This document shows, one piece after another, positions 17,817-41,079 of a DNA stretch of 64,000 nucleotides (position 1 is its first letter; every line of letters begins with the position of its first letter). This stretch comes from Schizophyllum amplum. Its lineage: Eukaryota; Basidiomycota; Agaricomycetes; Agaricales; Schizophyllaceae. Both the position numbers and the translations under genes were made by a program. The notes beneath the pieces were generated by a model. That model was not told the DNA's origin. It did no database searches and was given only the letters and a program-made list of their open reading frames with translations. The stretch lies in NCBI GenBank assembly GCA_007026445.1, contig VDMD01000002.1:1240001-1304000 (forward strand), written 5' to 3'.

Positions 17817-17848
17817 GGGCCATGATAAATCGCCGTATGGTGCTGTAC
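17817..17848 (+). repeat. Terminal inverted repeat, S-type end of E1
   Basis: It begins GGGCC and shares AAATCGCCGTATGGTGC with the T-type end at 18070 and its mirror at 41079. The two ends differ mainly at bases 6-10. Its last bases run into the phased GCCGTA array. Confidence 0.85.
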
Positions 17849-17941
17849 CCGGGCCGTACTCGCCGTACCGCTGCCGTACCCGCCGTACAGCCGCCGTACA
17901 GCCGCCGTACGGTGCCGTATAGGCGCCGTATGCAGGCCGTA
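17832..17941 (+). repeat. Phased GCCGTA array at the S end (outer copy)
   Basis: Hexamers start at 17832, 17842 (GCTGTA variant), 17853, 17862, 17873, 17882, 17893, 17904, 17914, 17925 and 17936. Spacing is 9-11 bp with a mean of 10.4, close to one turn of B-DNA. All point inward from the end. It is a candidate multi-site for a zinc-finger transposase. Confidence 0.85.
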
Positions 17942-18060
17942 TACTGGTCTCCAGCTTGCCAAAAGCTCTCTGGTGCTGTATGTAGATCTAGAAGCAGAAT
18001 TCTCCATTGTTCATCATAGCACTACGCGTGCATCACGTCGCGTCGCGTCGACGCGTGACG

Positions 18061-18069
18061 GTCCAGGTC
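18061..18069 (+). repeat. Inner target-site duplication, left copy (GTCCAGGTC)
   Basis: It lies directly before the T-type terminal repeat of E2 and is repeated in direct orientation at 29696-29704, where the E1 sequence resumes. Confidence 0.85.
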
Positions 18070-18084
18070 GGGCCTATCGAAATC

Positions 18085-18162
18085 GCCGTATGGTGCCGTA
18101 TGGCGCCGTTCCCCTGCCGTGTCCGGGCCGTACCTGCCGTACGGTGCTGTACTCGAGCTGTA
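18085..18162 (+). repeat. Phased GCCGTA array at the T end (E2)
   Basis: Hexamers or one-base variants start at 18085, 18095, 18105, 18116, 18127, 18136, 18146 and 18157, again spaced 9-11 bp and pointing inward. The mirror in E1 is at about 40987-41064. Confidence 0.78.
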
Positions 18163-18901
18163 CTACCGCCTTTCGCATTGCTTGTGTCCTCAGTAGATAG
18201 GAGTTCCTTTTTTCCCTCTGTATTCCTTCGGCAAGCATATAGATAGTGCAGCAATAGTAATCAGTTACCCCTCTGTGTCGATCTTCACTGTTTTGGAGCC
18301 TTCAATGTTATCAATGGTGATTATTTGCTCTCCGCGAGGAAACAGAGATGTTCAGTTCGAGTCAATGCGCCGCATGTCTGTACAGGCCCTCTGATAGTAC
18401 TCGTCAAACTGAACTGACTCCCCGCCGAACGGTGTGACATTGTGACTCGTCGGCGTTTGCCGGCATACCAGCGTTGAGCTTGGTTGGGGTGAGTCCCTCA
18501 CACCGCTGTAGATTTAAGGAGCCCAACCGCCATAAAATAGAAGTTATAGCTCTTTCAAGTATGTTTTGATGTCCAGAAGTTTCGCAAATCTATAGGCACT
18601 TGTGGCAGCGCGTATAGCACAATCCAGCCCGTGGTAACAGTGATTGCCTTTTTGGGACACGAGCGTCCTGCTTGCCTTCGACCGCGATGAAGTACTACTG
18701 GTCCGCGCGACACCAAGAACGTCTTCATACTCATGATGCATTTGTGCTCCCTTGATATCAATGGAAATTTTGGCAATGGCACTGCAAGGAGACAAACTCC
18801 TCCTCCTACTTTCTCACCCCGAAGCCAGAGAGCAATATACGGCAAGAGGTACGACTGTCGCACAGTGCTTTCACAGCTCATGTCAGCAGAATATCATTCT
18901 G
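18163..18901. other. Element non-coding region between T-end array and inner array (E2)
   Basis: No coding region is convincing here. Part of it is AT-richer. One isolated TACGGC lies at 18838. It probably belongs to the upstream region of gene A. Confidence 0.4.
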
Positions 18902-19086
18902 TACGGCACATATACGGCACTCTGAGGCGATGTACGGCTCACGTACAGCAGGCGTACGGTCGCGTACGGCGGCTGTACGGTGCCATACGGCACTTATACG
19001 GCACTTATACGGCCCTGTACGGCGCGTCTACGGCCCTGTACGGCTCAACATTACCTTCATATGGCTATCCTACGGCTGTCTACGGC
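18902..19086 (-). repeat. Inner phased hexamer array upstream of gene A (E2)
   Basis: TACGGC (GCCGTA on the other strand) or a one-base variant starts at 18902, 18913, 18933, 18944, 18955, 18965, 18976, 18986, 18997, 19008, 19018, 19029, 19039, 19071 and 19081. Steps are 10 or 11 bp, or about two or three times that, so 15 sites stay on one face of the helix. It lies about 500 bp upstream of the gene A start. Confidence 0.85.
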
Positions 19087-19580
19087 GAAGCACGGCAGTG
19101 CATTGTACTCATAGATCTCGAGTTTCAAGCAGAAGTACAGGCTCTCTTTATCGCTCGTGTCCGACCTACTCTTTGGTAGGCCTGTTCTTGTTCTTGTGCC
19201 GCCTGATGGGGCTGACTACAGCTGCAGCTCAGATATTTTCTGTAGCCTCAACAAGAAGCGCACACAGCAGCGTATCGAATTCGAAGCAAGCCTGCCACGC
19301 CTCGAACACCTGTGATCCTTTGTAGTGTTCGGGTGCTGGCACTGTGGTCAGTTGAACTTTCCCGTGACTGTGGGGAAATTGGAAAGGCCTGACATTCCCC
19401 ATCAGGCAGCCGATATACCGATGGCTCTAAATGCAATAGTAGGCCAATTTGTGGCGCTATGTAGCAGCGAGCCCTCGTATCGTCGCCCTGCTCCTTCATC
19501 CCGCCTTGTCAAAATTTCTGTCCTTTCTCATCTAATGGTACACTAACACTCATTGTCCGCATTCTATCGAAAATTATACC

Positions 19581-22500
19581 ATGGCCCTGGTATGTTTGTG
19601 CTTGCGCTGAGTACTCAAATCTCAGACCCCAGACTTTACAGAATTACTTCAAAGGCATATGGGCCGCGATCATCAAGCCCATCATCCCATTGTCAGGGCC
19701 CGAGGCAAACCCATCTGCCTCTCAGACTGCCGCAAGCAGTGCGGGAAGCACAACTCATCAACTGCCTGACGGTGCGGCAGCTCTTCTTTAATCGGGAGGG
19801 GAGAAACTGATATCCATCTCTCGCAGTCGTGCCCGTGTTTGATATTCATGGTCGGTCTTGCAGCGTGCTCTCTCAGTGCGACGCATTATTCTGACTCTCT
19901 CGTAGGACGTGTTACTTCTTATATTCCTCGTAATATGAGCGGCATTGCCACCGCTGGATGGCCTGCTGCTGCACCAACTACCGCTTTGGACTCAGCTGCG
20001 CAGAGAGCGCCTCCGGCGCCATATATCCCTAATGTGCCACAAGCACTGAACACTCCGAACAACATCGCCCTCACGCCCGGTATGAGTGCGACAGCGTCCG
20101 CTGAAGCTGCTGCTGCTATCAGCAGTACCACCGCATCGTCTGGCCCCCCAATACCTACCCCTGTTCCTCCTCCCATCGGCACTCATGCTCCGAGTCCCAT
20201 CCCTTCACCTCCTACCGCCGCCGCCGCCAACAACAACTTAACATTTGAGGCTGATGCTATAGAGTGGGATCCCTGGTTGGATGGCGCAGTCTCTCGCAGC
20301 CATTCCTTCGGTTATTTCACCAACTCGCAGACGTTCATGGTGCACTGGTCCATGACCACGCAGGGCGGCGAAGCGCATGGCAATGAGGCCCAACTCACGT
20401 GGGAGCAAGGAAAGCGCACGGTTCGCAAATGCAACGGCATCATTGTGTGCAATGAGTGCGGAGTGGTCATTCGCCCGAAGACCAAAGTGGCGACCATCCG
20501 GATGCAGGCTGCTCAGCGTTGTCCACAGAACGACTGCGGTGGCTATCTCAGATACGAGTCTTGCAGCGTATCCCTGAAGTACTATCGGTACCTCTATGGT
20601 GTGCACATCCAGACGTCCGGCACCCATTCCCACCGTCGACCTACCCATATCCTCCATCTCACTAAAGCGCAGAAGGCCTACCTGACGCGCATATTTGACG
20701 AGCACCCCAATGATGGCCCTCTCATGCTGCAGATCGGACGACCGGGGCAGCCTTCTGTCTCCGATGAGGTCGATCTCCTGATCAACACCGACCGCGTTCG
20801 TGCCGAGCGTACGCAACACCGCCGGCAACGTCATGAAGACTTCCCAATCGCGTACGCCAGCTTTGCCGAACAGCACCAGGACTTCATCATTGGCAGCGAG
20901 TTTGGCGACATTACCGTCGTCTGCATGCAGTCAAATTTCATGCGATCACAGCTGGTTCGCTCGCAGACGATGGACGGGACCTGTCCCGGGATTGTCTCGG
21001 ATGCAACATACAAGTTCTGGAGAGAGCCCACCTGCGTCCTAATCATCAGCTCCTTCTTCAACGCAACACTGTCTCGTTGGGTCCCTGCGCTCATGACTTA
21101 CGCCAACGGCACATCCGCCACTCATTACTACTACCACTTCAACGCCCTATTCCAGAGCATCGCCATGGAGTTTCAACAGATGGGCTCCCAAGTCACCGAT
21201 GAAGTTCTTGCCAATGTACGTTTCACCACCTGGTTGCTTGGTGTCTGCGCTAATACCACTACTTTTGGTCAGGTTGTAGACTTCAGTGAGGCGGAGCGGA
21301 ACGGGTTCGTCATGGCTTATGTCTCCTTTCGCCAGTGGGAATACGAGAATGGCATGGCCGAGGAATTGACGGCGACCGAGGACGACTTGCGAGCAACGGC
21401 GCTGAACCTTCTGAAAGGCTGCCAGCAGCACTATCGCGCGCAAGTAACACGCGTGTCCGCTATCAGCGCTGTTGTCAATCCCGCCCGCCGAGCCGAATTC
21501 CAACGCCGTGCACACTCCCTCGTTGATCTCACCACTGTCGCCGACTTCAACGCTGCAGCAAATAGCCTACAGTCCGACTTTCCATTCTCTCGACAATGGC
21601 TAGACTGGTGGCGGCGCGCGCCCAACGCGCGCATGATCTTCGAATCCCATCGTACCATGCCCGAGGAACTTTGGCGATCTTTGCCGGACACCACAAATGC
21701 GGCGGAGGCAATGCACAGCAAGATCTACAAGGGGATTGGCAAGGAAAAGACACTGATAGACGGCCTATATGCGCTGTATGCCTTTGTGGAAAGCTTGCAA
21801 AAGACCTACACGGCCGCGCGAGGTAAGTACGGCGTGCCGGCCAGTGCGGTATTGTGGCGCTGAATATCTTTGCAGATGGCATGAAAATTGGCTATGGGGA
21901 TCGGCGTCCTTGGGATACTATGAAGGGGAAGATTGGGCGTACCAAGATCTCACGGACGCCAGGCTACCGTCGCCGTCGCACACTCAACGATGGTAGGCCG
22001 ATGGATACAGCCGCGCAGCTCGTCGGCACTCGCACGAAGGCACCTGCACTTGAAGCCCAATCCGCAAAGAGTCCCGACTCGCGTGTTCCACAAGCGCTGC
22101 CTGGCATGAAATGGAGACAAAACTCATGCTGGCTAGACACATCCTTGCAGCTGCTGCATCATGCAATCGCCCGCGACGCCGCCGACTTTACACGCAGCTT
22201 CATCTCTTTGTCGACCTCCGCAGTACTGTCCGCCGAGCACCAGCCGATATACGAATTCATCAACGTCACAATGCAGCGGCAGGAGATTGTTGGAACCGCG
22301 TTGCATCGTCTTGATTTAGAAGAGCGGACTGCATGCACAGAGCAGCTCAGCGTGCTGCGCGACAGCCTGCGCCAGGAATTGCTCAGCAAGAACATCATTG
22401 ATGCTGGTGACGCCGGCGAGTCAAATCTATGGGTATGAACGCTTCACCACAATATACGTTGGAATAGCTGTGCTGATAATCAACCGGAATAGACATGGCT

Positions 22501-25500
22501 CATGACGCTGCTGTCTCGATCGCCTTCAGCAACACGGCCGCACGACTACGCATCTGTCCAGCAGCTTTATTTTGCCATGGGATATTTCACCTGGCGGACA
22601 TGCACAGGCAATGCGCAGGCGCAGATCCCAAAGCATCATCAGTTGACTCGCCAAGCCAGACTGCAGTACATGATCTCACTCCCTACCTCGACATCTGTTC
22701 CCTCGATGTTGCACTACGATAACCACATCACGGCGTGGTTTCGGGATCTTCTTAGCCTGAACCAGCCAGACCCGGCGGTCGGTTCTTGCTGGCGCCAAAG
22801 AGATGGTCATATGTTCTGCGATGGTGCGGCCTGCCGCAAAGATATCGTCACGAGCATACCCACAGTGCTCATCTTGCTTCTGGAAGGCTGGGACGACACC
22901 ATCTGCGCTTCCGATGTACAACTATCCATCCCCACCGAACTCTTTCCGCTCACAAAGACTCTCGGCCGTGAATGTGGCCTTGTTTACAACATTGTCGGTC
23001 GTGCATACTTCGATCCGTCCGCCGCTCACTTCTGGGCGCGCTTCACACCAGATGGCAAGCATGTTTACCAGTACGATGGACTGACGGGCGGCGGATCATC
23101 TTACCTTCAAGAGGCAATGCATGTCAAGGACGACCTGGCAGGCGATTTGTATATATCTGCAAGCGATGCAGAACATCCACGCCCGGTCTCTCTTGTCTAC
23201 CATCTTCGGGGAGGTGTGCATGCTCAGCAGGTTTTCTTCAAGCATAGAACCAAGGCCATTGAAGACAAGTTTCATGGCATACGACTTAGTGATGCGTACG
23301 GGCCCGCAGCCTCAGCCCCGGCTGGGGGACCGAGGCTCTCGGCGGACGCCACCCTTCTCCCGTTTGCCTCCATGATCGCGCCTCTCTACACAAGACTTGC
23401 GGAGGACGAACGACCCTGGATGGAGGGGACAAGCAGCGCTACGACGGACCTGTGGATTGACTACAACAGCCGCAGCCCCACTTTCTCCGGTATGTCTATT
23501 CTCCAAGCTGCTGCTCCGGAGTGTGCTGACCTATCTGAACAACCAGCATCACCAACAAAGCGCAAACGAAATCATGCAGCTTTCAGCACCTGGGAAGAGG
23601 ATGATGCTTGGAATGACAGGCAGGGCCAGGCGTCAGTCCCTCCCAGCGAAGGCGAGACCGGCTCTGGTCCAGGATCACACAAGCCCCCGTTGGCCGTGTT
23701 TCCAGCCGTGACCGCCGTCCGCCGAAGGCAGCACAGGCTGAGGAATCTGGCCAGCCAAAAGCAAAGAAACGTAAGCACCATTTACAACCACTCGATTCAT
23801 TTCAAACTCACGCCCACTTAGAACGTACCAAAGCACCGTCCAAGTCGCACGCGCGTACTCGGGCGACTGCCACTAACCGTGACGCTCCTCCTTCGAAGAA
23901 GCGCAAAGCTTCACCCACAGCTGTAGCCGAGGTGTTGCCTTCCAACAAGCGCAAGAAAGCGAGAGTACTGAGCCCTCCCCCTTCTGCGCTGACGGCGACT
24001 CAAAAGGAAGGCCGCGGCAAGCGTACCGGAGGGGAGCGTCCTCGTGAGCCATCCATTCAAAATGCAACTCTATCCGCACGACTAACAATGCCTGCCTCAG
24101 ATCCCTCTCTGGCTGCACATCACGGTTCGCAAGACACCAATTCTGACAGCAACTATGATTTCCAGTGTCGATGTGGCCTGTCTGGCCGAGGCAACGATGT
24201 TCTCCGTGATTCTACTGCAGTGGAAGCGTTGATACAATGTGACACATGTCGTTCTTGGTCGCATATTGCCTGCCAACGCGATGGGAGGCGGGCGACGCGG
24301 CAGCAGCGACAGACGCCCCATTTGAGTGTGACAATTGCTCAGGAGACGGCGGAGTATACGAGCAGCTATCACGCCGCAGGAACTCAGCCGCATATGAGTG
24401 AGTTGATCATGTTCATTCCGTAGTGGCGTAAGGCTAACATGCTGATATAGAGCAGAGTATTATCAACGATTGGACCGCAAAGCGCAGCTACCGCTGGAAG
24501 AACGCCTTCTGTAAGTCGACATCGCTTCTTGAGAGTAATGAATGACTGAGCCATATGTGGCCCTAGCCTTGGGCAAGGTTGTTTAGTCCGTGATGGCGAG
24601 TTTTGGTACCCTGCTCGCATTCTCAACCGCACGGACAACTTGTGGACAATCAAATTCTGGCGCTTCCGACATTTCTGTTCTAGTACCACCACTGGTAGTC
24701 GGGCGCTGGTCAGGGAGGTACGGCTAGAAGATATCTATGATGAGCTTTGGCAAGATCACTCGCATCGACGTATGATTCGCGTAAGTCGCCATTCACCCCA
24801 GATTTGTGCTACTGTGACACTCAATGACAACTAATAGCTCGGCAAATGGACACGGATATGTGATATCCCGGACGACGATGATATCCTGATTGGCTTCAAC
24901 AACTTCCCTTACTCTCAGGAAGTCGAGGATATACTTGGCCCACACCTGCAGACACTCAGCCTTATCTTGGCAGAAGGACACCTCGGCCGAGACGCGCGCC
25001 TGCTGAAGATCCCTTGCATTCAGTGGCTGCGTGACAGCAAGGCCAAAGTTGCAGGTGTCAGCGCCAGCGCTCTCAAGCGTCTGAAAGATGAAGGCAGCAT
25101 ACCTTTCGAAGGTCCTCTCTCCCCTGAAGATCGTGCACAGATCTCGAACTGGATATCTCGAAGGGTTCCAGGAGCGTCGGAGCAGTCTTTGGAATGGTTT
25201 GGGAAATCGCTCGCTGCTCATGCACAGACCATTCTTATTGCAGCACGCCGGCAAGCTGAGATCATAGACCTCCTCGGTGACGATTTTCCCGCAGGCCCGG
25301 GAAGCGCTGTCAAGCGTGTTCAAGCAATCTGGGATATTGCTTGGAAGCTCATGCGAGAGGAGAGGTGGTCAGCCCTCTCAAAACCCAACGGAATTGACGT
25401 CGACCGCGAATGTCTGAAGATCTTCGAGAGGAAGATTTTGGAGAACTCCGAAGAGGCTGGAAGGGCGGGGAACTGGCAATGGGGACTGGACGCAGGACAG

Positions 25501-25780
25501 CATGAGCACAACTGGCTCCCATACGCTGGTCTGGGTGAACAGACAGTGTGGGGTTCACCAAGGTCAGAGGATACGGACCGTGATAACGAGGAGTGTATGG
25601 TGAGTCGCTTGACCAATTCATGCTTGCCGCATCTCATTTTCTCCTCAGATCGGCTTAGCCACGGATAGCTGGATTATTTCTTCAGAAGATTGTGAGAAGG
25701 TGACCTCCTCTACGCACCCCGGTGTTGGACCTCGCCCTCGAGCAAGACTTCGGAGGAATCCTCGGAGGAAGGCGGCTTAA
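19581..25780 (+). pseudogene. Gene A, E2 copy: transposase-peptidase fusion with two frameshifts
   Basis: This has the same exon plan as the E1 copy (33367-39568). Introns lie at 19590-19641, 19772-19826, 19851-19905, 21216-21272, 21823-21875, 22433-22492, 24398-24450, 24511-24566, 24781-24837 and 25600-25648, and the stop is TAA at 25778-25780. The zinc finger, DDE core and peptidase are intact. One C is missing from the run at 23684-23688 and one G from the run at 24287-24288, relative to E1. Together they shift the frame before and inside the PHD finger and do not restore it. There is also a Glu/Lys difference at 20805. The losses lie in homopolymers, so sequencing error is possible. If real, this copy makes a truncated protein. 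Confidence 0.72.
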
Positions 25781-26655
25781 CGACACGAGTAGAAACAGGG
25801 ACTGTTCGGATAGCTACAAATCACAGTTCAGCCTAGCTTGCTGCCGCTAAAGCTCCTTCCAGTGTGGACATGGATCTTGATGTGAGTTTGGGCTGCATCC
25901 TGCACACGATGGACCTGAGTTTCAAGTACGGGGCGTCGGGCGAGCTCGCAGTATGGCTACTTACAAGCTAGTTAAAGCTTATTTGGGTATGGGGGTATAT
26001 GATGGGAATACGGCATAGTTACAGCTACATACGGCCCTCATACGGCCCTCGTACAGCCCTCATACGGCACTCTACAGCCCTCATACGGCCCCGTACGGTA
26101 GGGTACGGCACCCATACGGCAGGGTACGGCAGGGTACGGCAGGGTACGGCAGAGCATGGCATTGACTGCATCATGTTTCAACCCACAGTAGGAATGTCAT
26201 CTAGAACACAGACGGTCATCAGCGCCAGACAAACCAACAGGAGTGCGCAAACCAACGTTCGTGACATACATGTGACACAAGTCACATGCGACGCGCCAAT
26301 GCCAGCCGCCATATTCTGGGTTTCCGCGCTTGAAATAAGAGACAAGGAGAAGAAATTCGAGTAGGATGCGATCCATTGTACTCATATCAGCAAGAATTAC
26401 CCTCACATATGGCGAAACCATCTCAGAACGACATGTTCATTGCCACCATCATGCAACAAACAAAGGTAAACATTGCATGCGGCGTTGCGTTGCGCACCTA
26501 TCTCGTCTGACACAAGTATGCTCTTCCATAACATAGGTTACATGTTACTTGTTGGTGGAGACTATCAGGTAGAGCGAGTGAATATCCATATAGCCATGCA
26601 GTCGAAGGGTCTCTATGCCACAATATTGGCATAGCTAAATCTGATCGTAAAGGGT
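25781..26655. other. Convergent spacer between genes A and B (E2)
   Basis: It contains the 3' flanks of both element genes and the third hexamer array. No additional gene was recognised. Confidence 0.45.
26009..26150 (-). repeat. Third phased hexamer array, between genes A and B (E2)
   Basis: TACGGC starts at 26009, 26030, 26041, 26063, 26084, 26104, 26115, 26125, 26135 and 26145. Steps are 10-11 or 20-22 bp, and the last four are exactly 10 bp apart as a small tandem repeat. The mirror lies at 32997-33138. Confidence 0.82.
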
Positions 26656-29392
26656 CTAATAGGATCTACGTGTCCTTCTCGACGCAGAGATAATCCCTTC
26701 CACTCCAGCAATGGCGCGGTCAGCACTCGCACGCTTGAACTTCTTGGTGGTGCAACGTTCGTCATTATTTTCTTTAGCTGCCTTGCGCTTCGCGGTCTCG
26801 ACTGGAACCTGTGCATCGATACGTCGAACCTCAGCAGCGGATAGCCCTTCCTTCCGGTCGCCTTTAGCTCCCAGTCTAGCTGTAGCAATGGCTAGCAGGC
26901 GTCGACGCTGCAGGAAGGCTGAGTGGCGAGGGTCACGCTCGCATACAAAGATCCTAAAAACGCGTGTGAGTAAAGCACGTTCAGAAAGCGCACATGCTTA
27001 CTTGTAGACCGTACCGCACTTGACCTTGCGTGCAACCCCGCAAAAGTCGAGAGGACCCACAGTGTACTTCTTATAGTGGTGGGCGACATTGTAGCGAATC
27101 AAACGTGTCCGCCGTTCGTCGGCGGAGAACAGGCGCCCTTTTCCCTTGCTGGGAATCAGGGGATCATGGTAAAAGGTGCGCCAGGTGGTTCCGTCGTCGG
27201 GGAGAGATTGCAAGAAGGTGGATAGCGCCACCTGACTAAAGGAGAGGAGTATGTAAGTCACATACTCTGGAGCGGCAGTAGGGGCAGTACACCTTACCTG
27301 CTGACATTGCGAGTGCACCGTCTAGAGGGCCGAGCGCTAATCTCGCCGCGCGCCTTCTGATCCGCATCCGCAGCGGCGCGAGCGCGCTCAGTATCGTATT
27401 GTTGTTTCTCTTGCTCAGCCCGGCAACGTGCGTTAGCCAACTCTTCCTGATGTCTCTCTTTACGCTCTCGAAGTTGCTCAACACTACCGACAGGTTGAGA
27501 GAGGTGTGGATAAGGTGGTATGCAGGACCAGATGTCGCAGGTGAAGTCGTACACTTGCGTGCCAAAACGTCGCTTGTTCTTGCCCTCCTCTGTGAAAAGG
27601 ACGGAGTAAAGATCGAGATTGAGATGACTATAGGTCGGATCTTGGAATTTGTGAGCCAACGAACAGAGCAGAAAGGTGAGGCGTACCATGGCCTCTACCA
27701 ATCAGCCACTCTACTTGTTCGGGATCGCAGAAGAGTCGCGCGATGGGGTTCAGCCCCGAGCAAGCATCTTCGGTCAAGCACAGTTGAGACTGCGCTAATG
27801 TACGCCACCGATCCGGTCCAAATATCAAAGGCCCTGGGTTTGAGGCATCGTTCATTGTCAGGGCGTGACACACGTCATTTGGCTCAAAGGGATCGAATGG
27901 ACAAGCACCCGGTCGCCGAATCCAATGAGCGATCACGTCGCAGGGCTCCATATCCTACCAAGAAGGTTATCTCAGCAAACCAAATGAACGAGAGGGAATG
28001 GTGCACGCGTACCTTGCGCTGCTCGCTCTGCGTGACCCAAAATTCCTACAAATGGTATGAGCACAAGCGAACAGAATATACGAGATTTCACTGCACCTTA
28101 GCAGCTGATAAAGCGGCACCATATCGGTTTGTTGTGCAGCTTTCGTCGCGGCCGTATACGCGCAGTTCGCGCTTCTCGTAGTCACGCCGCTGTTCCTGCG
28201 TCACAGCCAGGAGATAGTGATGCATGTAAGGGCGGATGAAAGTCCTGTAGGGAGTTAAGCAAGAGAGAGACGCCGAACAACACGGAATTACCACGCAGTA
28301 AGATCTGCAGCTTTGACAAACGAAAAGTACGCCGCAACAAGTCGTCCAAGGCGTCCGCCGTTGTCGTCATCACAAAGCTCCTCCTCCGTTATGTTAGGTG
28401 GAAGCCCTGGATATATGGTTCAGCTTCACTTTGCGGTCAATGATATGTCAGGACTTGCCCGCCAGATGCCATATTTCCGATGTCGTATAAACACCCATAC
28501 CCGGGAAAAGGGGTGAGTTATCGTCTGTGAGTGCAGACCGCACACGGTCGACGGCAAAACACGTCCTGTCCGCATTGCCGCGACGGCGGCGCAACACCCA
28601 GCGGCGGACATTCTCTTCCAACTGAAGAAGATTTCCGGGCTGAAGGACATCGAGGTACCGATGTCCCAGCTCGTCCCGTGAGCGTGCCCAATGGAACTGT
28701 AGGTGATCAAAGTTTGTCAAAGGTGTGCGCCGCGGAAAACAGCTGCACGCACCTGCGTAATGTTGTCGAGAGAGTTGAAAGAAAGCACATAATTCTTGAA
28801 GACGAAAGCCAGCGAGACACGAAAACCACGTCCTTCTACACCAGGCTGACATTTCATAAGACAGGGTTTGACAAGGACGGCTGGTGCGCGCACCTTCTCC
28901 GGCTGACAAGGTACCTGCTTCACGCCATCATCCCACTCGTCAAGCGTGTAGATCTGTGATACTGTATGTTGGAAGTACTGGATCTGAATATTGTAAGTAG
29001 AGCAGCACAGTTGAGCTCTATACTCAAGCACTCACCTCTGTCCAAAGAGACCCGCCATCAGCCGCGCGAAACTCGAGGAGAACCGATCGAGGAGTAGCCT
29101 GGGCGCGTAAAAGGACGAGACCGTGGTTGCGGATGGGGACGTCGTCCTTCGACGCGTAGAGGGTTGGGAAGAGATGGGTTTGATTGGCCTTCTGTCCGCG
29201 CAAGACTGACGATGACGCCAAGAGCTCTTCGACGTGTCCGTGGCGGCCAGCACAATGAGACGGTGCTTTGGCGCTCTCGTCGATGGTCCGATCGTAGCAG
29301 AGAGTATCGACCGTGCGCTCAGATTCCAGCTCGCGTTGCGTGAAGTTGTTGATCTTTGCTGCTTCAATCTTCAGTTCCCTTAGTTCTGGCAT
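26656..29392 (-). CDS. Gene B, E2 copy: partner protein of unknown function
   Basis: This is the mirror of the E1 copy at 29755-32491, with the same ten-exon plan and intact frame. It differs by one base at 28234, which turns the Cys of TFICPYMHH into Arg. Its start codon lies 362 bp from that of the E1 copy, head to head across the flipped 244-bp spacer, so its natural upstream DNA is in the opposite orientation from that of E1. No function is recognised. Confidence 0.7.
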
Positions 29393-29451
29393 GGAGGTAG
29401 GAGCAAGAACGAGTGCGTGCTCGATCAATAGACGCGCGCTCAGACCTGGAC

Positions 29452-29695
29452 GGGCCATGATAAATCGCCGTATGGTGCTGTACCCGGGCCGTACTCGCCG
29501 TACCGCTGCCGTACCCGCCGTACAGCCGCCGTACAGCCGCCGTACGGTGCCGTATAGGCGCCGTATGCAGGCCGTATACTGGTCTCCAGCTTGCCAAAAG
29601 CTCTCTGGTGCTGTATGTAGATCTAGAAGCAGAATTCTCCATTGTTCATCATAGCACTACGCGTGCATCACGTCGCGTCGCGTCGACGCGTGACG
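29452..29695 (+). repeat. 244-bp palindrome loop (S' segment), flipped relative to expectation
   Basis: It is identical to 17817-18060. It is bounded by GACCTGGAC (29443-29451) and GTCCAGGTC (29696-29704), which are reverse complements. A simple inverted self-insertion would place it on the other strand. The hexamer array (GCCGTA from about 29467) is included. Confidence 0.85.
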
Positions 29696-29704
29696 GTCCA
29701 GGTC
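29696..29704 (+). repeat. Inner target-site duplication, right copy (GTCCAGGTC)
   Basis: Exact direct repeat of 18061-18069. E1 sequence continues at 29705. Confidence 0.82.
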
Positions 29705-29754
29705 TGAGCGCGCGTCTATTGATCGAGCACGCACTCGTTCTTGCTCCTACCTCC

Positions 29755-32491
29755 ATGCCAGAACTAAGGGAACTGAAGATTGAAGCAGCAAAGATCAACA
29801 ACTTCACGCAACGCGAGCTGGAATCTGAGCGCACGGTCGATACTCTCTGCTACGATCGGACCATCGACGAGAGCGCCAAAGCACCGTCTCATTGTGCTGG
29901 CCGCCACGGACACGTCGAAGAGCTCTTGGCGTCATCGTCAGTCTTGCGCGGACAGAAGGCCAATCAAACCCATCTCTTCCCAACCCTCTACGCGTCGAAG
30001 GACGACGTCCCCATCCGCAACCACGGTCTCGTCCTTTTACGCGCCCAGGCTACTCCTCGATCGGTTCTCCTCGAGTTTCGCGCGGCTGATGGCGGGTCTC
30101 TTTGGACAGAGGTGAGTGCTTGAGTATAGAGCTCAACTGTGCTGCTCTACTTACAATATTCAGATCCAGTACTTCCAACATACAGTATCACAGATCTACA
30201 CGCTTGACGAGTGGGATGATGGCGTGAAGCAGGTACCTTGTCAGCCGGAGAAGGTGCGCGCACCAGCCGTCCTTGTCAAACCCTGTCTTATGAAATGTCA
30301 GCCTGGTGTAGAAGGACGTGGTTTTCGTGTCTCGCTGGCTTTCGTCTTCAAGAATTATGTGCTTTCTTTCAACTCTCTCGACAACATTACGCAGGTGCGT
30401 GCAGCTGTTTTCCGCGGCGCACACCTTTGACAAACTTTGATCACCTACAGTTCCATTGGGCACGCTCACGGGACGAGCTGGGACATCGGTACCTCGATGT
30501 CCTTCAGCCCGGAAATCTTCTTCAGTTGGAAGAGAATGTCCGCCGCTGGGTGTTGCGCCGCCGTCGCGGCAATGCGGACAGGACGTGTTTTGCCGTCGAC
30601 CGTGTGCGGTCTGCACTCACAGACGATAACTCACCCCTTTTCCCGGGTATGGGTGTTTATACGACATCGGAAATATGGCATCTGGCGGGCAAGTCCTGAC
30701 ATATCATTGACCGCAAAGTGAAGCTGAACCATATATCCAGGGCTTCCACCTAACATAACGGAGGAGGAGCTTTGTGATGACGACAACGGCGGACGCCTTG
30801 GACGACTTGTTGCGGCGTACTTTTCGTTTGTCAAAGCTGCAGATCTTACTGCGTGGTAATTCCGTGTTGTTCGGCGTCTCTCTCTTGCTTAACTCCCTAC
30901 AGGACTTTCATCTGCCCTTACATGCATCACTATCTCCTGGCTGTGACGCAGGAACAGCGGCGTGACTACGAGAAGCGCGAACTGCGCGTATACGGCCGCG
31001 ACGAAAGCTGCACAACAAACCGATATGGTGCCGCTTTATCAGCTGCTAAGGTGCAGTGAAATCTCGTATATTCTGTTCGCTTGTGCTCATACCATTTGTA
31101 GGAATTTTGGGTCACGCAGAGCGAGCAGCGCAAGGTACGCGTGCACCATTCCCTCTCGTTCATTTGGTTTGCTGAGATAACCTTCTTGGTAGGATATGGA
31201 GCCCTGCGACGTGATCGCTCATTGGATTCGGCGACCGGGTGCTTGTCCATTCGATCCCTTTGAGCCAAATGACGTGTGTCACGCCCTGACAATGAACGAT
31301 GCCTCAAACCCAGGGCCTTTGATATTTGGACCGGATCGGTGGCGTACATTAGCGCAGTCTCAACTGTGCTTGACCGAAGATGCTTGCTCGGGGCTGAACC
31401 CCATCGCGCGACTCTTCTGCGATCCCGAACAAGTAGAGTGGCTGATTGGTAGAGGCCATGGTACGCCTCACCTTTCTGCTCTGTTCGTTGGCTCACAAAT
31501 TCCAAGATCCGACCTATAGTCATCTCAATCTCGATCTTTACTCCGTCCTTTTCACAGAGGAGGGCAAGAACAAGCGACGTTTTGGCACGCAAGTGTACGA
31601 CTTCACCTGCGACATCTGGTCCTGCATACCACCTTATCCACACCTCTCTCAACCTGTCGGTAGTGTTGAGCAACTTCGAGAGCGTAAAGAGAGACATCAG
31701 GAAGAGTTGGCTAACGCACGTTGCCGGGCTGAGCAAGAGAAACAACAATACGATACTGAGCGCGCTCGCGCCGCTGCGGATGCGGATCAGAAGGCGCGCG
31801 GCGAGATTAGCGCTCGGCCCTCTAGACGGTGCACTCGCAATGTCAGCAGGTAAGGTGTACTGCCCCTACTGCCGCTCCAGAGTATGTGACTTACATACTC
31901 CTCTCCTTTAGTCAGGTGGCGCTATCCACCTTCTTGCAATCTCTCCCCGACGACGGAACCACCTGGCGCACCTTTTACCATGATCCCCTGATTCCCAGCA
32001 AGGGAAAAGGGCGCCTGTTCTCCGCCGACGAACGGCGGACACGTTTGATTCGCTACAATGTCGCCCACCACTATAAGAAGTACACTGTGGGTCCTCTCGA
32101 CTTTTGCGGGGTTGCACGCAAGGTCAAGTGCGGTACGGTCTACAAGTAAGCATGTGCGCTTTCTGAACGTGCTTTACTCACACGCGTTTTTAGGATCTTT
32201 GTATGCGAGCGTGACCCTCGCCACTCAGCCTTCCTGCAGCGTCGACGCCTGCTAGCCATTGCTACAGCTAGACTGGGAGCTAAAGGCGACCGGAAGGAAG
32301 GGCTATCCGCTGCTGAGGTTCGACGTATCGATGCACAGGTTCCAGTCGAGACCGCGAAGCGCAAGGCAGCTAAAGAAAATAATGACGAACGTTGCACCAC
32401 CAAGAAGTTCAAGCGTGCGAGTGCTGACCGCGCCATTGCTGGAGTGGAAGGGATTATCTCTGCGTCGAGAAGGACACGTAGATCCTATTAG
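29755..32491 (+). CDS. Gene B, E1 copy: element-encoded partner protein, function unknown
   Basis: Ten exons splice in frame: 29755-30111, 30164-30394, 30451-30646, 30741-30855, 30903-31050, 31102-31134, 31193-31460, 31507-31849, 31912-32145 and 32194-32491. They give 740 residues. The first ATG in frame is at 29755. Visible blocks include PGLPPNITEEELCDDDNGGR, GRLVAAYFSFVKAADL, CPYMHHYLLAVTQEQRRDYE and ACPFDPFEPNDVCHALT. A charged coiled coil lies near residues 505-545, and the C-terminus is strongly basic and looks like a nuclear signal. Scattered Cys/His could bind metal. I know no named domain. From memory, similar unnamed proteins recur in Agaricomycete genomes, which I cannot verify here. 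Its conservation in both copies suggests a role in transposition. Confidence 0.75.
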
Positions 32492-33366
32492 ACCCTTTAC
32501 GATCAGATTTAGCTATGCCAATATTGTGGCATAGAGACCCTTCGACTGCATGGCTATATGGATATTCACTCGCTCTACCTGATAGTCTCCACCAACAAGT
32601 AACATGTAACCTATGTTATGGAAGAGCATACTTGTGTCAGACGAGATAGGTGCGCAACGCAACGCCGCATGCAATGTTTACCTTTGTTTGTTGCATGATG
32701 GTGGCAATGAACATGTCGTTCTGAGATGGTTTCGCCATATGTGAGGGTAATTCTTGCTGATATGAGTACAATGGATCGCATCCTACTCGAATTTCTTCTC
32801 CTTGTCTCTTATTTCAAGCGCGGAAACCCAGAATATGGCGGCTGGCATTGGCGCGTCGCATGTGACTTGTGTCACATGTATGTCACGAACGTTGGTTTGC
32901 GCACTCCTGTTGGTTTGTCTGGCGCTGATGACCGTCTGTGTTCTAGATGACATTCCTACTGTGGGTTGAAACATGATGCAGTCAATGCCATGCTCTGCCG
33001 TACCCTGCCGTACCCTGCCGTACCCTGCCGTATGGGTGCCGTACCCTACCGTACGGGGCCGTATGAGGGCTGTAGAGTGCCGTATGAGGGCTGTACGAGG
33101 GCCGTATGAGGGCCGTATGTAGCTGTAACTATGCCGTATTCCCATCATATACCCCCATACCCAAATAAGCTTTAACTAGCTTGTAAGTAGCCATACTGCG
33201 AGCTCGCCCGACGCCCCGTACTTGAAACTCAGGTCCATCGTGTGCAGGATGCAGCCCAAACTCACATCAAGATCCATGTCCACACTGGAAGGAGCTTTAG
33301 CGGCAGCAAGCTAGGCTGAACTGTGATTTGTAGCTATCCGAACAGTCCCTGTTTCTACTCGTGTCG
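32492..33366. other. Convergent spacer between genes B and A (E1)
   Basis: Mirror of 25781-26655. It contains the third hexamer array and no recognised gene. Confidence 0.45.
32997..33138 (+). repeat. Third phased GCCGTA array (E1)
   Basis: Mirror of 26009-26150. Ten hexamers step by one or two helical turns, including a run of tandem units of CCCTGCCGTA form. Confidence 0.82.
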
Positions 33367-36300
33367 TTAAGCCGCCTTCCTCCGAGGATTCCTCCGAAGT
33401 CTTGCTCGAGGGCGAGGTCCAACACCGGGGTGCGTAGAGGAGGTCACCTTCTCACAATCTTCTGAAGAAATAATCCAGCTATCCGTGGCTAAGCCGATCT
33501 GAGGAGAAAATGAGATGCGGCAAGCATGAATTGGTCAAGCGACTCACCATACACTCCTCGTTATCACGGTCCGTATCCTCTGACCTTGGTGAACCCCACA
33601 CTGTCTGTTCACCCAGACCAGCGTATGGGAGCCAGTTGTGCTCATGCTGTCCTGCGTCCAGTCCCCATTGCCAGTTCCCCGCCCTTCCAGCCTCTTCGGA
33701 GTTCTCCAAAATCTTCCTCTCGAAGATCTTCAGACATTCGCGGTCGACGTCAATTCCGTTGGGTTTTGAGAGGGCTGACCACCTCTCCTCTCGCATGAGC
33801 TTCCAAGCAATATCCCAGATTGCTTGAACACGCTTGACAGCGCTTCCCGGGCCTGCGGGAAAATCGTCACCGAGGAGGTCTATGATCTCAGCTTGCCGGC
33901 GTGCTGCAATAAGAATGGTCTGTGCATGAGCAGCGAGCGATTTCCCAAACCATTCCAAAGACTGCTCCGACGCTCCTGGAACCCTTCGAGATATCCAGTT
34001 CGAGATCTGTGCACGATCTTCAGGGGAGAGAGGACCTTCGAAAGGTATGCTGCCTTCATCTTTCAGACGCTTGAGAGCGCTGGCGCTGACACCTGCAACT
34101 TTGGCCTTGCTGTCACGCAGCCACTGAATGCAAGGGATCTTCAGCAGGCGCGCGTCTCGGCCGAGGTGTCCTTCTGCCAAGATAAGGCTGAGTGTCTGCA
34201 GGTGTGGGCCAAGTATATCCTCGACTTCCTGAGAGTAAGGGAAGTTGTTGAAGCCAATCAGGATATCATCGTCGTCCGGGATATCACATATCCGTGTCCA
34301 TTTGCCGAGCTATTAGTTGTCATTGAGTGTCACAGTAGCACAAATCTGGGGTGAATGGCGACTTACGCGAATCATACGTCGATGCGAGTGATCTTGCCAA
34401 AGCTCATCATAGATATCTTCTAGCCGTACCTCCCTGACCAGCGCCCGACTACCAGTGGTGGTACTAGAACAGAAATGTCGGAAGCGCCAGAATTTGATTG
34501 TCCACAAGTTGTCCGTGCGGTTGAGAATGCGAGCAGGGTACCAAAACTCGCCATCACGGACTAAACAACCTTGCCCAAGGCTAGGGCCACATATGGCTCA
34601 GTCATTCATTACTCTCAAGAAGCGATGTCGACTTACAGAAGGCGTTCTTCCAGCGGTAGCTGCGCTTTGCGGTCCAATCGTTGATAATACTCTGCTCTAT
34701 ATCAGCATGTTAGCCTTACGCCACTACGGAATGAACATGATCAACTCACTCATATGCGGCTGAGTTCCTGCGGCGTGATAGCTGCTCGTATACTCCGCCG
34801 TCTCCTGAGCAATTGTCACACTCAAATGGGGCGTCTGTCGCTGCTGCCGCGTCGCCCGCCCTCCCATCGCGTTGGCAGGCAATATGCGACCAAGAACGAC
34901 ATGTGTCACATTGTATCAACGCTTCCACTGCAGTAGAATCACGGAGAACATCGTTGCCTCGGCCAGACAGGCCACATCGACACTGGAAATCATAGTTGCT
35001 GTCAGAATTGGTGTCTTGCGAACCGTGATGTGCAGCCAGAGAGGGATCTGAGGCAGGCATTGTTAGTCGTGCGGATAGAGTTGCATTTTGAATGGATGGC
35101 TCACGAGGACGCTCCCCTCCGGTACGCTTGCCGCGGCCTTCCTTTTGAGTCGCCGTCAGCGCAGAAGGGGGAGGGCTCAGTACTCTCGCTTTCTTGCGCT
35201 TGTTGGAAGGCAACACCTCGGCTACAGCTGTGGGTGAAGCTTTGCGCTTCTTCGAAGGAGGAGCGTCACGGTTAGTGGCAGTCGCCCGAGTACGCGCGTG
35301 CGACTTGGACGGTGCTTTGGTACGTTCTAAGTGGGCGTGAGTTTGAAATGAATCGAGTGGTTGTAAATGGTGCTTACGTTTCTTTGCTTTTGGCTGGCCA
35401 GATTCCTCAGCCTGTGCTGCCTTCGGCGGACGGCGGTCACGGCTGGAAACACGGCCAACGGGGGGCTTGTGTGATCCTGGACCAGAGCCGGTCTCGCCTT
35501 CGCTGGGAGGGACTGACGCCTGGCCCTGCCTGTCATTCCAAGCATCATCCTCTTCCCAGGTGCTGAAAGCTGCATGATTTCGTTTGCGCTTTGTTGGTGA
35601 TGCTGGTTGTTCAGATAGGTCAGCACACTCCGGAGCAGCAGCTTGGAGAATAGACATACCGGAGAAAGTGGGGCTGCGGCTGTTGTAGTCAATCCACAGG
35701 TCCGTCGTAGCGCTGCTTGTCCCCTCCATCCAGGGTCGTTCGTCCTCCGCAAGTCTTGTGTAGAGAGGCGCGATCATGGAGGCAAACGGGAGAAGGGTGG
35801 CGTCCGCCGAGAGCCTCGGTCCCCCAGCCGGGGCTGAGGCTGCGGGCCCGTACGCATCACTAAGTCGTATGCCATGAAACTTGTCTTCAATGGCCTTGGT
35901 TCTATGCTTGAAGAAAACCTGCTGAGCATGCACACCTCCCCGAAGATGGTAGACAAGAGAGACCGGGCGTGGATGTTCTGCATCGCTTGCAGATATATAC
36001 AAATCGCCTGCCAGGTCGTCCTTGACATGCATTGCCTCTTGAAGGTAAGATGATCCGCCGCCCGTCAGTCCATCGTACTGGTAAACATGCTTGCCATCTG
36101 GTGTGAAGCGCGCCCAGAAGTGAGCGGCGGACGGATCGAAGTATGCACGACCGACAATGTTGTAAACAAGGCCACATTCACGGCCGAGAGTCTTTGTGAG
36201 CGGAAAGAGTTCGGTGGGGATGGATAGTTGTACATCGGAAGCGCAGATGGTGTCGTCCCAGCCTTCCAGAAGCAAGATGAGCACTGTGGGTATGCTCGTG

Positions 36301-39300
36301 ACGATATCTTTGCGGCAGGCCGCACCATCGCAGAACATATGACCATCTCTTTGGCGCCAGCAAGAACCGACCGCCGGGTCTGGCTGGTTCAGGCTAAGAA
36401 GATCCCGAAACCACGCCGTGATGTGGTTATCGTAGTGCAACATCGAGGGAACAGATGTCGAGGTAGGGAGTGAGATCATGTACTGCAGTCTGGCTTGGCG
36501 AGTCAACTGATGATGCTTTGGGATCTGCGCCTGCGCATTGCCTGTGCATGTCCGCCAGGTGAAATATCCCATGGCAAAATAAAGCTGCTGGACAGATGCG
36601 TAGTCGTGCGGCCGTGTTGCTGAAGGCGATCGAGACAGCAGCGTCATGAGCCATGTCTATTCCGGTTGATTATCAGCACAGCTATTCCAACGTATATTGT
36701 GGTGAAGCGTTCATACCCATAGATTTGACTCGCCGGCGTCACCAGCATCAATGATGTTCTTGCTGAGCAATTCCTGGCGCAGGCTGTCGCGCAGCACGCT
36801 GAGCTGCTCTGTGCATGCAGTCCGCTCTTCTAAATCAAGACGATGCAACGCGGTTCCAACAATCTCCTGCCGCTGCATTGTGACGTTGATGAATTCGTAT
36901 ATCGGCTGGTGCTCGGCGGACAGTACTGCGGAGGTCGACAAAGAGATGAAGCTGCGTGTAAAGTCGGCGGCGTCGCGGGCGATTGCATGATGCAGCAGCT
37001 GCAAGGATGTGTCTAGCCAGCATGAGTTTTGTCTCCATTTCATGCCAGGCAGCGCTTGTGGAACACGCGAGTCGGGACTCTTTGCGGATTGGGCTTCAAG
37101 TGCAGGTGCCTTCGTGCGAGTGCCGACGAGCTGCGCGGCTGTATCCATCGGCCTACCATCGTTGAGTGTGCGACGGCGACGGTAGCCTGGCGTCCGTGAG
37201 ATCTTGGTACGCCCAATCTTCCCCTTCATAGTATCCCAAGGACGCCGATCCCCATAGCCAATTTTCATGCCATCTGCAAAGATATTCAGCGCCACAATAC
37301 CGCACTGGCCGGCACGCCGTACTTACCTCGCGCGGCCGTGTAGGTCTTTTGCAAGCTTTCCACAAAGGCATACAGCGCATATAGGCCGTCTATCAGTGTC
37401 TTTTCCTTGCCAATCCCCTTGTAGATCTTGCTGTGCATTGCCTCCGCCGCATTTGTGGTGTCCGGCAAAGATCGCCAAAGTTCCTCGGGCATGGTACGAT
37501 GGGATTCGAAGATCATGCGCGCGTTGGGCGCGCGCCGCCACCAGTCTAGCCATTGTCGAGAGAATGGAAAGTCGGACTGTAGGCTATTTGCTGCAGCGTT
37601 GAAGTCGGCGACAGTGGTGAGATCAACGAGGGAGTGTGCACGGCGTTGGAATTCGGCTCGGCGGGCGGGATTGACAACAGCGCTGATAGCGGACACGCGT
37701 GTTACTTGCGCGCGATAGTGCTGCTGGCAGCCTTTCAGAAGGTTCAGCGCCGTTGCTCGCAAGTCGTCCTCGGTCGCCGTCAATTCCTCGGCCATGCCAT
37801 TCTCGTATTCCCACTGGCGAAAGGAGACATAAGCCATGACGAACCCGTTCCGCTCCGCCTCACTGAAGTCTACAACCTGACCAAAAGTAGTGGTATTAGC
37901 GCAGACACCAAGCAACCAGGTGGTGAAACGTACATTGGCAAGAACTTCATCGGTGACTTGGGAGCCCATCTGTTGAAACTCCATGGCGATGCTCTGGAAT
38001 AGGGCGTTGAAGTGGTAGTAGTAATGAGTGGCGGATGTGCCGTTGGCGTAAGTCATGAGCGCAGGGACCCAACGAGACAGTGTTGCGTTGAAGAAGGAGC
38101 TGATGATTAGGACGCAGGTGGGCTCTCTCCAGAACTTGTATGTTGCATCCGAGACAATCCCGGGACAGGTCCCGTCCATCGTCTGCGAGCGAACCAGCTG
38201 TGATCGCATGAAATTTGACTGCATGCAGACGACGGTAATGTCGCCAAACTCGCTGCCAATGATGAAGTCCTGGTGCTGTTCGGCAAAGCTGGCGTACGCG
38301 ATTGGGAAGTCTTCATGACGTTGCCGGCGGTGTTGCGTACGCTTGGCACGAACGCGGTCGGTGTTGATCAGGAGATCGACCTCATCGGAGACAGAAGGCT
38401 GCCCCGGTCGTCCGATCTGCAGCATGAGAGGGCCATCATTGGGGTGCTCGTCAAATATGCGCGTCAGGTAGGCCTTCTGCGCTTTAGTGAGATGGAGGAT
38501 ATGGGTAGGTCGACGGTGGGAATGGGTGCCGGACGTCTGGATGTGCACACCATAGAGGTACCGATAGTACTTCAGGGATACGCTGCAAGACTCGTATCTG
38601 AGATAGCCACCGCAGTCGTTCTGTGGACAACGCTGAGCAGCCTGCATCCGGATGGTCGCCACTTTGGTCTTCGGGCGAATGACCACTCCGCACTCATTGC
38701 ACACAATGATGCCGTTGCATTTGCGAACCGTGCGCTTTCCTTGCTCCCACGTGAGTTGGGCCTCATTGCCATGCGCTTCGCCGCCCTGCGTGGTCATGGA
38801 CCAGTGCACCATGAACGTCTGCGAGTTGGTGAAATAACCGAAGGAATGGCTGCGAGAGACTGCGCCATCCAACCAGGGATCCCACTCTATAGCATCAGCC
38901 TCAAATGTTAAGTTGTTGTTGGCGGCGGCGGCGGTAGGAGGTGAAGGGATGGGACTCGGAGCATGAGTGCCGATGGGAGGAGGAACAGGGGTAGGTATTG
39001 GGGGGCCAGACGATGCGGTGGTACTGCTGATAGCAGCAGCAGCTTCAGCGGACGCTGTCGCACTCATACCGGGCGTGAGGGCGATGTTGTTCGGAGTGTT
39101 CAGTGCTTGTGGCACATTAGGGATATATGGCGCCGGAGGCGCTCTCTGCGCAGCTGAGTCCAAAGCGGTAGTTGGTGCAGCAGCAGGCCATCCAGCGGTG
39201 GCAATGCCGCTCATATTACGAGGAATATAAGAAGTAACACGTCCTACGAGAGAGTCAGAATAATGCGTCGCACTGAGAGAGCACGCTGCAAGACCGACCA

Positions 39301-39568
39301 TGAATATCAAACACGGGCACGACTGCGAGAGATGGATATCAGTTTCTCCCCTCCCGATTAAAGAAGAGCTGCCGCACCGTCAGGCAGTTGATGAGTTGTG
39401 CTTCCCGCACTGCTTGCGGCAGTCTGAGAGGCAGATGGGTTTGCCTCGGGCCCTGACAATGGGATGATGGGCTTGATGATCGCGGCCCATATGCCTTTGA
39501 AGTAATTCTGTAAAGTCTGGGGTCTGAGATTTGAGTACTCAGCGCAAGCACAAACATACCAGGGCCAT
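33367..39568 (-). CDS. Gene A, E1 copy: transposase fused to USP-like peptidase, PHD and Tudor-like modules
   Basis: The minus-strand splice model starts at the ATG at 39568 (MALNYFKGIWAAIIKP) and uses ten introns of 49-60 bp. It gives about 1,884 residues (up to 36 fewer if two frame-neutral introns are removed near 35.3 and 35.7 kb). Visible parts, in order, are: a zinc finger with C230, C236, C239, C260, C265, C274 and H295-S-H297 (GCM/WRKY-like); a DDE core with SDATYKFW (D420), VVDFSEAER (D494) and the TTNAAEAMHSKIY signature (E636); a USP-like cysteine peptidase with NSCWLDTSLQLL (C759) and HVYQYDGL (H1050); basic Lys/Arg-rich linkers; a PHD finger at about 1419-1476; and a Tudor/PWWP-like barrel at about 1520-1587 (RDGEFWYPARILN). 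The stop is TAA at 33367-33369. It probably acts in the nucleus. Catalytic residue choices are inferred from spacing. Confidence 0.8.
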
Positions 39569-40062
39569 GGTATAATTTTCGATAGAATGCGGACAATGAG
39601 TGTTAGTGTACCATTAGATGAGAAAGGACAGAAATTTTGACAAGGCGGGATGAAGGAGCAGGGCGACGATACGAGGGCTCGCTGCTACATAGCGCCACAA
39701 ATTGGCCTACTATTGCATTTAGAGCCATCGGTATATCGGCTGCCTGATGGGGAATGTCAGGCCTTTCCAATTTCCCCACAGTCACGGGAAAGTTCAACTG
39801 ACCACAGTGCCAGCACCCGAACACTACAAAGGATCACAGGTGTTCGAGGCGTGGCAGGCTTGCTTCGAATTCGATACGCTGCTGTGTGCGCTTCTTGTTG
39901 AGGCTACAGAAAATATCTGAGCTGCAGCTGTAGTCAGCCCCATCAGGCGGCACAAGAACAAGAACAGGCCTACCAAAGAGTAGGTCGGACACGAGCGATA
40001 AAGAGAGCCTGTACTTCTGCTTGAAACTCGAGATCTATGAGTACAATGCACTGCCGTGCTTC

Positions 40063-40247
40063 GCCGTAGACAGCCGTAGGATAGCCATATGAAGGTAATG
40101 TTGAGCCGTACAGGGCCGTAGACGCGCCGTACAGGGCCGTATAAGTGCCGTATAAGTGCCGTATGGCACCGTACAGCCGCCGTACGCGACCGTACGCCTG
40201 CTGTACGTGAGCCGTACATCGCCTCAGAGTGCCGTATATGTGCCGTA
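40063..40247 (+). repeat. Inner phased GCCGTA array upstream of gene A (E1)
   Basis: Exact mirror of the 15-site array at 18902-19086, with sites every 10-11 bp. Confidence 0.83.
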
Positions 40248-41047
40248 CAGAATGATATTCTGCTGACATGAGCTGTGAAAGCACTGTGCGACAGTCGTAC
40301 CTCTTGCCGTATATTGCTCTCTGGCTTCGGGGTGAGAAAGTAGGAGGAGGAGTTTGTCTCCTTGCAGTGCCATTGCCAAAATTTCCATTGATATCAAGGG
40401 AGCACAAATGCATCATGAGTATGAAGACGTTCTTGGTGTCGCGCGGACCAGTAGTACTTCATCGCGGTCGAAGGCAAGCAGGACGCTCGTGTCCCAAAAA
40501 GGCAATCACTGTTACCACGGGCTGGATTGTGCTATACGCGCTGCCACAAGTGCCTATAGATTTGCGAAACTTCTGGACATCAAAACATACTTGAAAGAGC
40601 TATAACTTCTATTTTATGGCGGTTGGGCTCCTTAAATCTACAGCGGTGTGAGGGACTCACCCCAACCAAGCTCAACGCTGGTATGCCGGCAAACGCCGAC
40701 GAGTCACAATGTCACACCGTTCGGCGGGGAGTCAGTTCAGTTTGACGAGTACTATCAGAGGGCCTGTACAGACATGCGGCGCATTGACTCGAACTGAACA
40801 TCTCTGTTTCCTCGCGGAGAGCAAATAATCACCATTGATAACATTGAAGGCTCCAAAACAGTGAAGATCGACACAGAGGGGTAACTGATTACTATTGCTG
40901 CACTATCTATATGCTTGCCGAAGGAATACAGAGGGAAAAAAGGAACTCCTATCTACTGAGGACACAAGCAATGCGAAAGGCGGTAGTACAGCTCGAGTAC
41001 AGCACCGTACGGCAGGTACGGCCCGGACACGGCAGGGGAACGGCGCC

Positions 41048-41079
41048 ATACGGCACCATACGGCGATTTCGATAGGCCC
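41048..41079 (-). repeat. Terminal inverted repeat, T-type end of E1
   Basis: On the minus strand it reads GGGCCTATCGAAATCGCCG and matches the S-type end at 17817 except mainly at bases 6-10. It is identical to the E2 end at 18070. Confidence 0.85.

Follow-up and report, generated by a model that had tools for sequence, protein, structure and literature searches.

Double elements, in which one transposon lies within an identical copy of itself, are known from the Ac/Ds system (hAT) of maize. Ds is a short non-autonomous element and, in double Ds, the inner element is in inverted orientation. PMC3744419 describes two reactions as established, the hybrid insertion of Drosophila P elements and, for maize Ac/Ds, sister chromatid transposition. 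It further describes reversed-ends transposition of hAT elements, another alternative transposition, as giving products with non-matching flanks.

Here we analyse a 23-kb palindrome of the basidiomycete Schizophyllum amplum. The window, that is the whole stretch of DNA analysed, is 64,000 bp long and covers positions 1,240,001-1,304,000 of a 3.48-Mb contig (C112), in a genome of 49.65 Mb assembled in 309 contigs. As in maize double Ds or nested Ds, one element sits within an identical copy. Unlike double Ds, the duplication is of 9 bp rather than 8 bp, the unit is an 11.6-kb coding element rather than a short non-autonomous one, the host is a fungus and the centre is flipped relative to plain nesting. 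The palindrome is best read as a real double element, produced by the transposon's own transposition machinery. A fungal inverted double element of this kind was absent from the matches listed, as judged from open-access titles and abstract openings.

Architecture of the palindrome

The palindrome and its borders comprise the following features (window coordinates).

17808..17816, + strand: outer target duplication, left copy, GCTTGTTCT
17817..18069, + strand: left-end fragment, element positions 1-253
18061..18069, + strand: inner target duplication GTCCAGGTC, element positions 245-253, abutting the right terminus at 18070
18070..29451, - strand: left arm, inverted, element positions 11628 to 245, beginning with the right terminus GGGCCTATCG
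29452..29695, + strand: palindrome centre, 244 bp, element positions 1-244; plain nesting predicts the opposite orientation
29452..41079, + strand: uninterrupted 11,628-bp element, both termini present
29696..29704, + strand: inner target copy GTCCAGGTC within the right-hand element
41080..41088, + strand: outer target duplication, right copy, GCTTGTTCT
28234/30913 and 20805/38344: substitutions between the arms
24286/34861 and 23683/35465: homopolymer length differences between the arms

Aligned as reverse complements, the two arms (18070-29451 and 29696-41079) are 99.965% identical over 11,385 columns. A sequence-only reading of this DNA had counted four differences between them, and there are exactly four: two substitutions and two single-base differences in homopolymer length. 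That reading also described an outer 9-bp duplication and an inner direct repeat, and both were recovered (17808-17816 with 41080-41088, and 18061-18069 with 29696-29704). Removing 18070-29704 leaves 11,628 bp, as it had stated. When read in element orientation, both substitutions oppose a CpG in the left arm to a TpG in the right arm (C versus T before G); with two such sites, an origin by deamination is only suggestive.

The segments 29452-29704 and 17817-18069 are direct copies, identical at 253/253 positions, and a full 11,628-bp element is therefore already present at 29452-41079. Its ends are GGGCCATGATAAATCGCCGTATGGTGC and, inverted, GGGCCTATCGAAATCGCCGTATGGTGC, and the similarity between them extends over about 30 bp and is imperfect. 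The 9-mers that flank this complete element do not match, with GACCTGGAC on the left and GCTTGTTCT on the right. At the inner junctions, the right terminus (18070) and the left terminus (29452, on the other strand) are joined to GTCCAGGTC, positions 245-253. One end of the piece 18070-29695 is a true terminus; the other is element position 244, where there is none. In the assembled orientation, three of the termini (17817, 18070 and 29452) point leftwards and one (41079) points to the right, and proper end pairs delimit the complete right-hand element and the entire 23-kb unit. The whole observed structure measures 23,263 bp.

The element and its relatives

The coding frames and repeat arrays of the element are listed below.

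37286..39379, - strand: transposase open frame, 697 codons stop to stop
34746..37322, - strand: two open frames downstream of the transposase, cysteine-peptidase-like and with a PHD-like finger (sub-threshold Pfam matches)
22502..24398, + strand: peptidase/PHD frame of the left arm, split into three
29467..29616, + strand: GCYGTAY array, left end (element 16-165)
32997..33139, + strand: GCYGTAY array, internal (element 3546-3688)
40105..40312, + strand: GCYGTAY array, internal, upstream side of the transposase frame (element 10654-10861)
40986..41064, - strand: GCYGTAY array, right end, inverted (element 11535-11613)

The transposase is 674 aa long from its first start codon (37286-39310) and is open in both arms. 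Three relatives were obtained (P0001-P0003), from Mycena pura and Coprinopsis, and a second protein search, run with the alignment, returned these same three only. Residues D388, D481, C528 and H531 are invariant in all four aligned sequences, and an N..E motif follows further on in three of them, the three that reach that far. These residues suggest a DDE-type active site, and the protein is a probable DDE transposase. A GCM-motif (zinc domain) match was sub-threshold in the window protein (21 bits, cut-off 25); P0001 scored 18.4 bits and P0002 and P0003 gave no match. The PDB held no convincing match to the transposase (5 rows, best E 0.027), and two AlphaFold2 models had mean pLDDT values of 35.5 and 38.0, too poor for a fold search.

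Downstream, the Peptidase_C98 match (14 bits, cut-off 27) and the PHD match in the frame neighbouring the transposase (20.2 bits, cut-off 24) are both sub-threshold. P0001 of Mycena pura combines the transposase and the peptidase-like part in one protein (31% identity over 224 columns and 37% over 129). The breaks in the left-arm copy of the peptidase/PHD frame coincide with the two arm length differences, and either true variation or sequencing error may account for these. A fungal transposon with this domain combination was not named among the matches listed, in open-access titles and abstract openings. In viral contigs, 63 pattern matches yielded no confirmed relative.

The element is a large DNA transposon, with a duplication length that fits MULEs and no Pfam MULE match. 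Pfam includes a KDZ model, and no KDZ family figured among the Pfam matches of the window protein (E up to 0.1) or of P0001-P0003 (E up to 1). The element resembles the KDZ group (Kyakuja, Dileera, Zisupton) as a DNA transposon in fungi, but it makes 9-bp duplications whereas those of Zisupton are of 8 bp (PMC12730594, in the text accessible). The sequence-only reading had called it Mutator-type. The duplication length fits this: 9 bp falls within the 8-11 bp given for MULEs in the accessible part of PMC6446971, and insertion near a gene start is another likeness. The assignment found no support in Pfam, where MULE (PF10551) matched neither the window transposase (E up to 0.1) nor P0001-P0003 (E up to 1), nor when a shallow transposase profile was compared with two open frames of this genome that match MULE. 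The imperfect termini of about 30 bp and the peptidase-like domain are further differences from MULEs. Six places in the genome exceed the Pfam MULE cut-off (L073-L078), including a 749-aa open frame on contig C245. Rehavkus elements combine a PHD finger with a minisatellite before the 3' terminal repeat, and the same portion of PMC6446971 gives insects and annelids as their only hosts. The sub-threshold PHD-like finger and the arrays of our element may recall this arrangement; the host here is a fungus.

GCYGTAY occurs 48 times in the element, both strands counted, whereas 60 first-order simulations gave 5.3 on average and at most 13; outside the palindrome, the remaining 40,728 bp of the window contain 23. 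When forward motifs are less than 70 bp apart, 27 of 31 spacings are of 10-11 or 20-21 bp, one or two helix turns. Genome-wide, a triple-motif pattern occurs at 24 places (18 in the palindrome and 6 in three copies of small elements) versus 2 for the reversed control. The arrays are likely transposase-binding sites, and the internal ones may be enhancers or serve autoregulation. An internal array is also present in the small non-autonomous relatives.

In the 49.65-Mb genome, searched with the first 1,000 bp and the two proteins, the high-identity element was found only in the palindrome; the copy counts from these searches are lower bounds. A search with the whole 11,628-bp element was left out of the count because the palindrome itself was missing from its 11 weak matches. 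Solo copies and an empty site had both been raised by the sequence-only reading. Neither was found: the 1-kb left end and the two proteins gave no high-identity copy outside the palindrome, and each flank, searched in the same genome for an empty site in another haplotype, occupies one place.

Several smaller or diverged relatives were recovered. One small non-autonomous relative, C250:123478-124466 (L069), has the same type of termini and a duplication, GCCGCCATT. The copy at C142:20498-21485 (L070) represents this same insertion, in near-identical contig sequence (99.85% over 3,983 bp), and was left out of the count. One stretch of C142, a contig of 29 kb, is near-identical to part of C250, and the assembly may thus hold a haplotig duplication. 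Another small relative, C244:927789-929747 (L068), is flanked by AGTCGGCCC and has about 980 bp of extra internal sequence. Used as a DNA query, one small element matched nothing beyond its own copies (C250, C142, C244) and short stretches of ends or arrays in the palindrome. A diverged coding relative at C244:970-978 kb (L014-L015) shows 36 and 46% protein identity, and 41% with the second protein; it carries a PHD-like part (20.4 bits) and few GCYGTAY motifs (12 in 16 kb). Its termini were not found when terminal repeats and 9-bp duplications were sought. With up to two mismatches, the terminal pattern gave 18 matches versus 16 in the reversed control, and only the five exact matches were taken as real, four in the palindrome and one at C244:927800.

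Formation of the double element

Plain inverted nesting predicts the order element 1-253, whole inverted element, element 245-11628. Compared in silico with this prediction, the observed sequence departs by the four arm differences and by one inverted block of 244 bp, 29452-29695; when this block is inverted, only the four arm differences remain. The orientation of the centre contradicts simple nesting, and hence a hybrid-end event, a later flip or an assembly choice is needed. The sequence-only reading had proposed nested transposition instead of a fold-back. Its argument for real transposition holds, with two independent 9-bp duplications and an element inserted in its own twin; simple nesting does not, the 244-bp centre being wrongly oriented. 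Judged as a double Ds-type structure, a complete element inside an identical one, the locus has the expected junctions and 9-bp duplication, and the expected terminus only after the centre is flipped. A hybrid-end model (element 1-253, inverted 11628-245, complete 1-11628) differs from the observed 23,263 bp by the four arm differences only. The blocks and junctions predicted for a hybrid insertion are present, together with the non-matching flanks GACCTGGAC and GCTTGTTCT, a result that depends on the centre orientation as assembled. Three other models did not fit the observed sequence: nesting in direct orientation, the direct-orientation outcome of a hybrid event, and a hybrid variant with insertion into the other sister copy.

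The most economical route to the assembled sequence would be a one-step hybrid-end insertion between sister copies, a reading that we hold at very nearly even confidence. After replication, the element would exist on both sister chromatids, and the transposase would pair its left end from one chromatid with its right end from the other. This hybrid pair would then insert at positions 245-253 of the copy that contributed the right end. That end would join the 253 side, and the left end the 245 side. The expected product is flank, element 1-253, inverted element 11628-245, complete element, flank; it would carry both 9-bp duplications and leave no donor copy elsewhere. The junctions, the duplications, the block orientations as assembled and the near-identity of the arms are read from the sequence. 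Both inner junctions are exact element termini on the same 9-bp target, which speaks for this route. Moreover, the restriction of the high-identity element to the palindrome fits a source in a sister copy; under either this route or ordinary nesting, that no third copy was found agrees with the sister chromatid, the homologue or the partner nucleus as the source.

From this single event, we infer sister chromatids as the source, the use of hybrid ends and a single step. As in P hybrid insertion and Ac/Ds sister chromatid transposition, the ends of two separate copies would cooperate (PMC3744419, available part), and the junctions carry a normal target duplication. Unlike in these reactions, the insertion would go into one of the two elements that supplied the ends, giving a palindrome, and that part of PMC3744419 contains no such case. 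Against the hybrid-end route, the reciprocal product, an empty chromatid, was not found, each flank occurring once in the assembly; the literature searched contained no hybrid-end event in this element family. That palindromic double transposons can form in one step, when left and right ends of different sisters attack their own element, with the 23-kb structure as a natural product, is a tentative proposal to which we give slightly less than even confidence.

In ordinary nesting, the inserted copy, near-identical and supplied by the sister, the homologue or the second nucleus of a dikaryon, would have entered in inverted orientation at 245-253, and the centre would later have been flipped by a crossover between the arms or oriented arbitrarily by the assembler. 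We regard this as a serious possibility, if somewhat below an even one. It predicts the same junctions and 9-bp duplication and, once 29452-29695 is flipped, matches the observed sequence apart from the four arm differences, but it requires an extra step or that the assembler made the choice. Flipping of DNA enclosed by long inverted repeats is described for chloroplasts, HSV-1 and designed yeast systems (PMC3147054, portion at hand); in the systems tested there, double rolling circle replication activated inversion and normal replication did not. Self-insertions are known for artificial transposons derived from P (PMC4744444, accessible portion), and in Fusarium one non-autonomous Helitron is nested within an autonomous one (PMC5148889, accessible portion). 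No third, donor copy was found, an objection that falls if the donor was the sister or the homologue.

The hybrid-end route and ordinary nesting are separated by the centre. Reversing the whole palindrome also reverses its centre, so that from within the palindrome looks alike either way. The orientation is fixed only by reads that link the centre to a unique flank across the 11.4-kb arm, and reads under about 11.4 kb cannot tell the two routes apart. Since the assembled orientation hangs on read length, we weight the two almost evenly.

An assembly fold-back is an unlikely source of the palindrome, and we consider any artefact, fold-back or chimera, made from one 11.6-kb element to be very improbable. 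Its appeal is that the palindrome is known from assembled sequence and that two of the four arm differences are of homopolymer length, a usual type of sequencing error. However, the palindrome sits within a 3.48-Mb contig between flanks that differ from each other and are each single-copy in the assembly. The outer flanks share a 9-bp duplication, and the inner junctions fall exactly at termini with a second, different 9-mer; a fold-back would not create such junctions of termini plus duplication. These same features argue for a real self-insertion. A single specified 9-bp match at the flanks has a chance probability of 4^-9 (3.8e-6), and a 9-bp duplication accompanies four independent insertions (outer, inner, C250 and C244:927789) among five family loci, the fifth being the diverged relative at C244:970-978 kb, without recognisable ends. 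End-proximal self-targeting, also put forward in the sequence-only reading and meaning that element ends specifically attract the same element, is highly unlikely in our view: the site does lie close to the end array, on its inner side and 244 bp from the terminus, but this is one event, the probability that an insertion lands no more than 253 bp from one of the two ends is 0.044, and the outer, C250 and C244:927789 insertions show no family sequence at the target side.

The host gene and the meaning of the double element

The insertion separates two features of the host DNA.

17791..17800, + strand: TATA-like box TATATAAAAG, ending 7 bp ahead of the outer target duplication
41207..42901, + strand: DDI1-like gene, ATG at 41207

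For the DDI1-like gene, two aspartyl-protease matches exceed the cut-off (E 2.2e-16 and 2.9e-6), those to UBA and to the Ddi2 helical domain are sub-threshold, and DDI1 chains are matched in the PDB (best E 5.8e-5). The outer insertion lies between the TATA-like box and the DDI1 ATG, which it separates by 23 kb; without the insertion and one target copy, the distance from the start of the box to the ATG would be 144 bp. We predict that DDI1 transcription is lost through the insertion. Neighbouring frames are Coa3-like (43335-44195), CDC14-like (44440-46098), aldo/keto reductase-like (52368-53138) and PP4R3-like (59642-60883). Among the 120 of 284 PP4R3 relatives listed are named Agaricomycetes, Pleurotus and Laccaria included; like the Mycena pura and Coprinopsis origin of the transposase relatives, this points to an agaricomycete host. 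On the other side, 8118-16651 is a stretch of 8.5 kb with no listed open frame of at least 150 aa. No tRNA was found in the window.

Nested Ds elements cause chromosome breakage in maize, and selection is thought to act against them (PMC3260210, in the part accessible); breakage there rises when the interacting termini are closer (PMC9910405, likewise in part). By analogy, the termini at 17817 and 18070, 253 bp apart, are predicted to be of the kind that raises breakage in maize. A natural fungal double element, with 11.6-kb units and intact junctions, provides a second system for questions on the formation of double elements and on chromosome breakage. The orientation of its 244-bp centre separates one-step hybrid-end transposition from ordinary nesting. 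If the one-step reading is true, the order of the blocks, the junctions and the duplications can be read from the sequence once the centre orientation is confirmed. Double elements were already known in maize; what could be different here is a possible single-step origin, using the ends of two sister copies.
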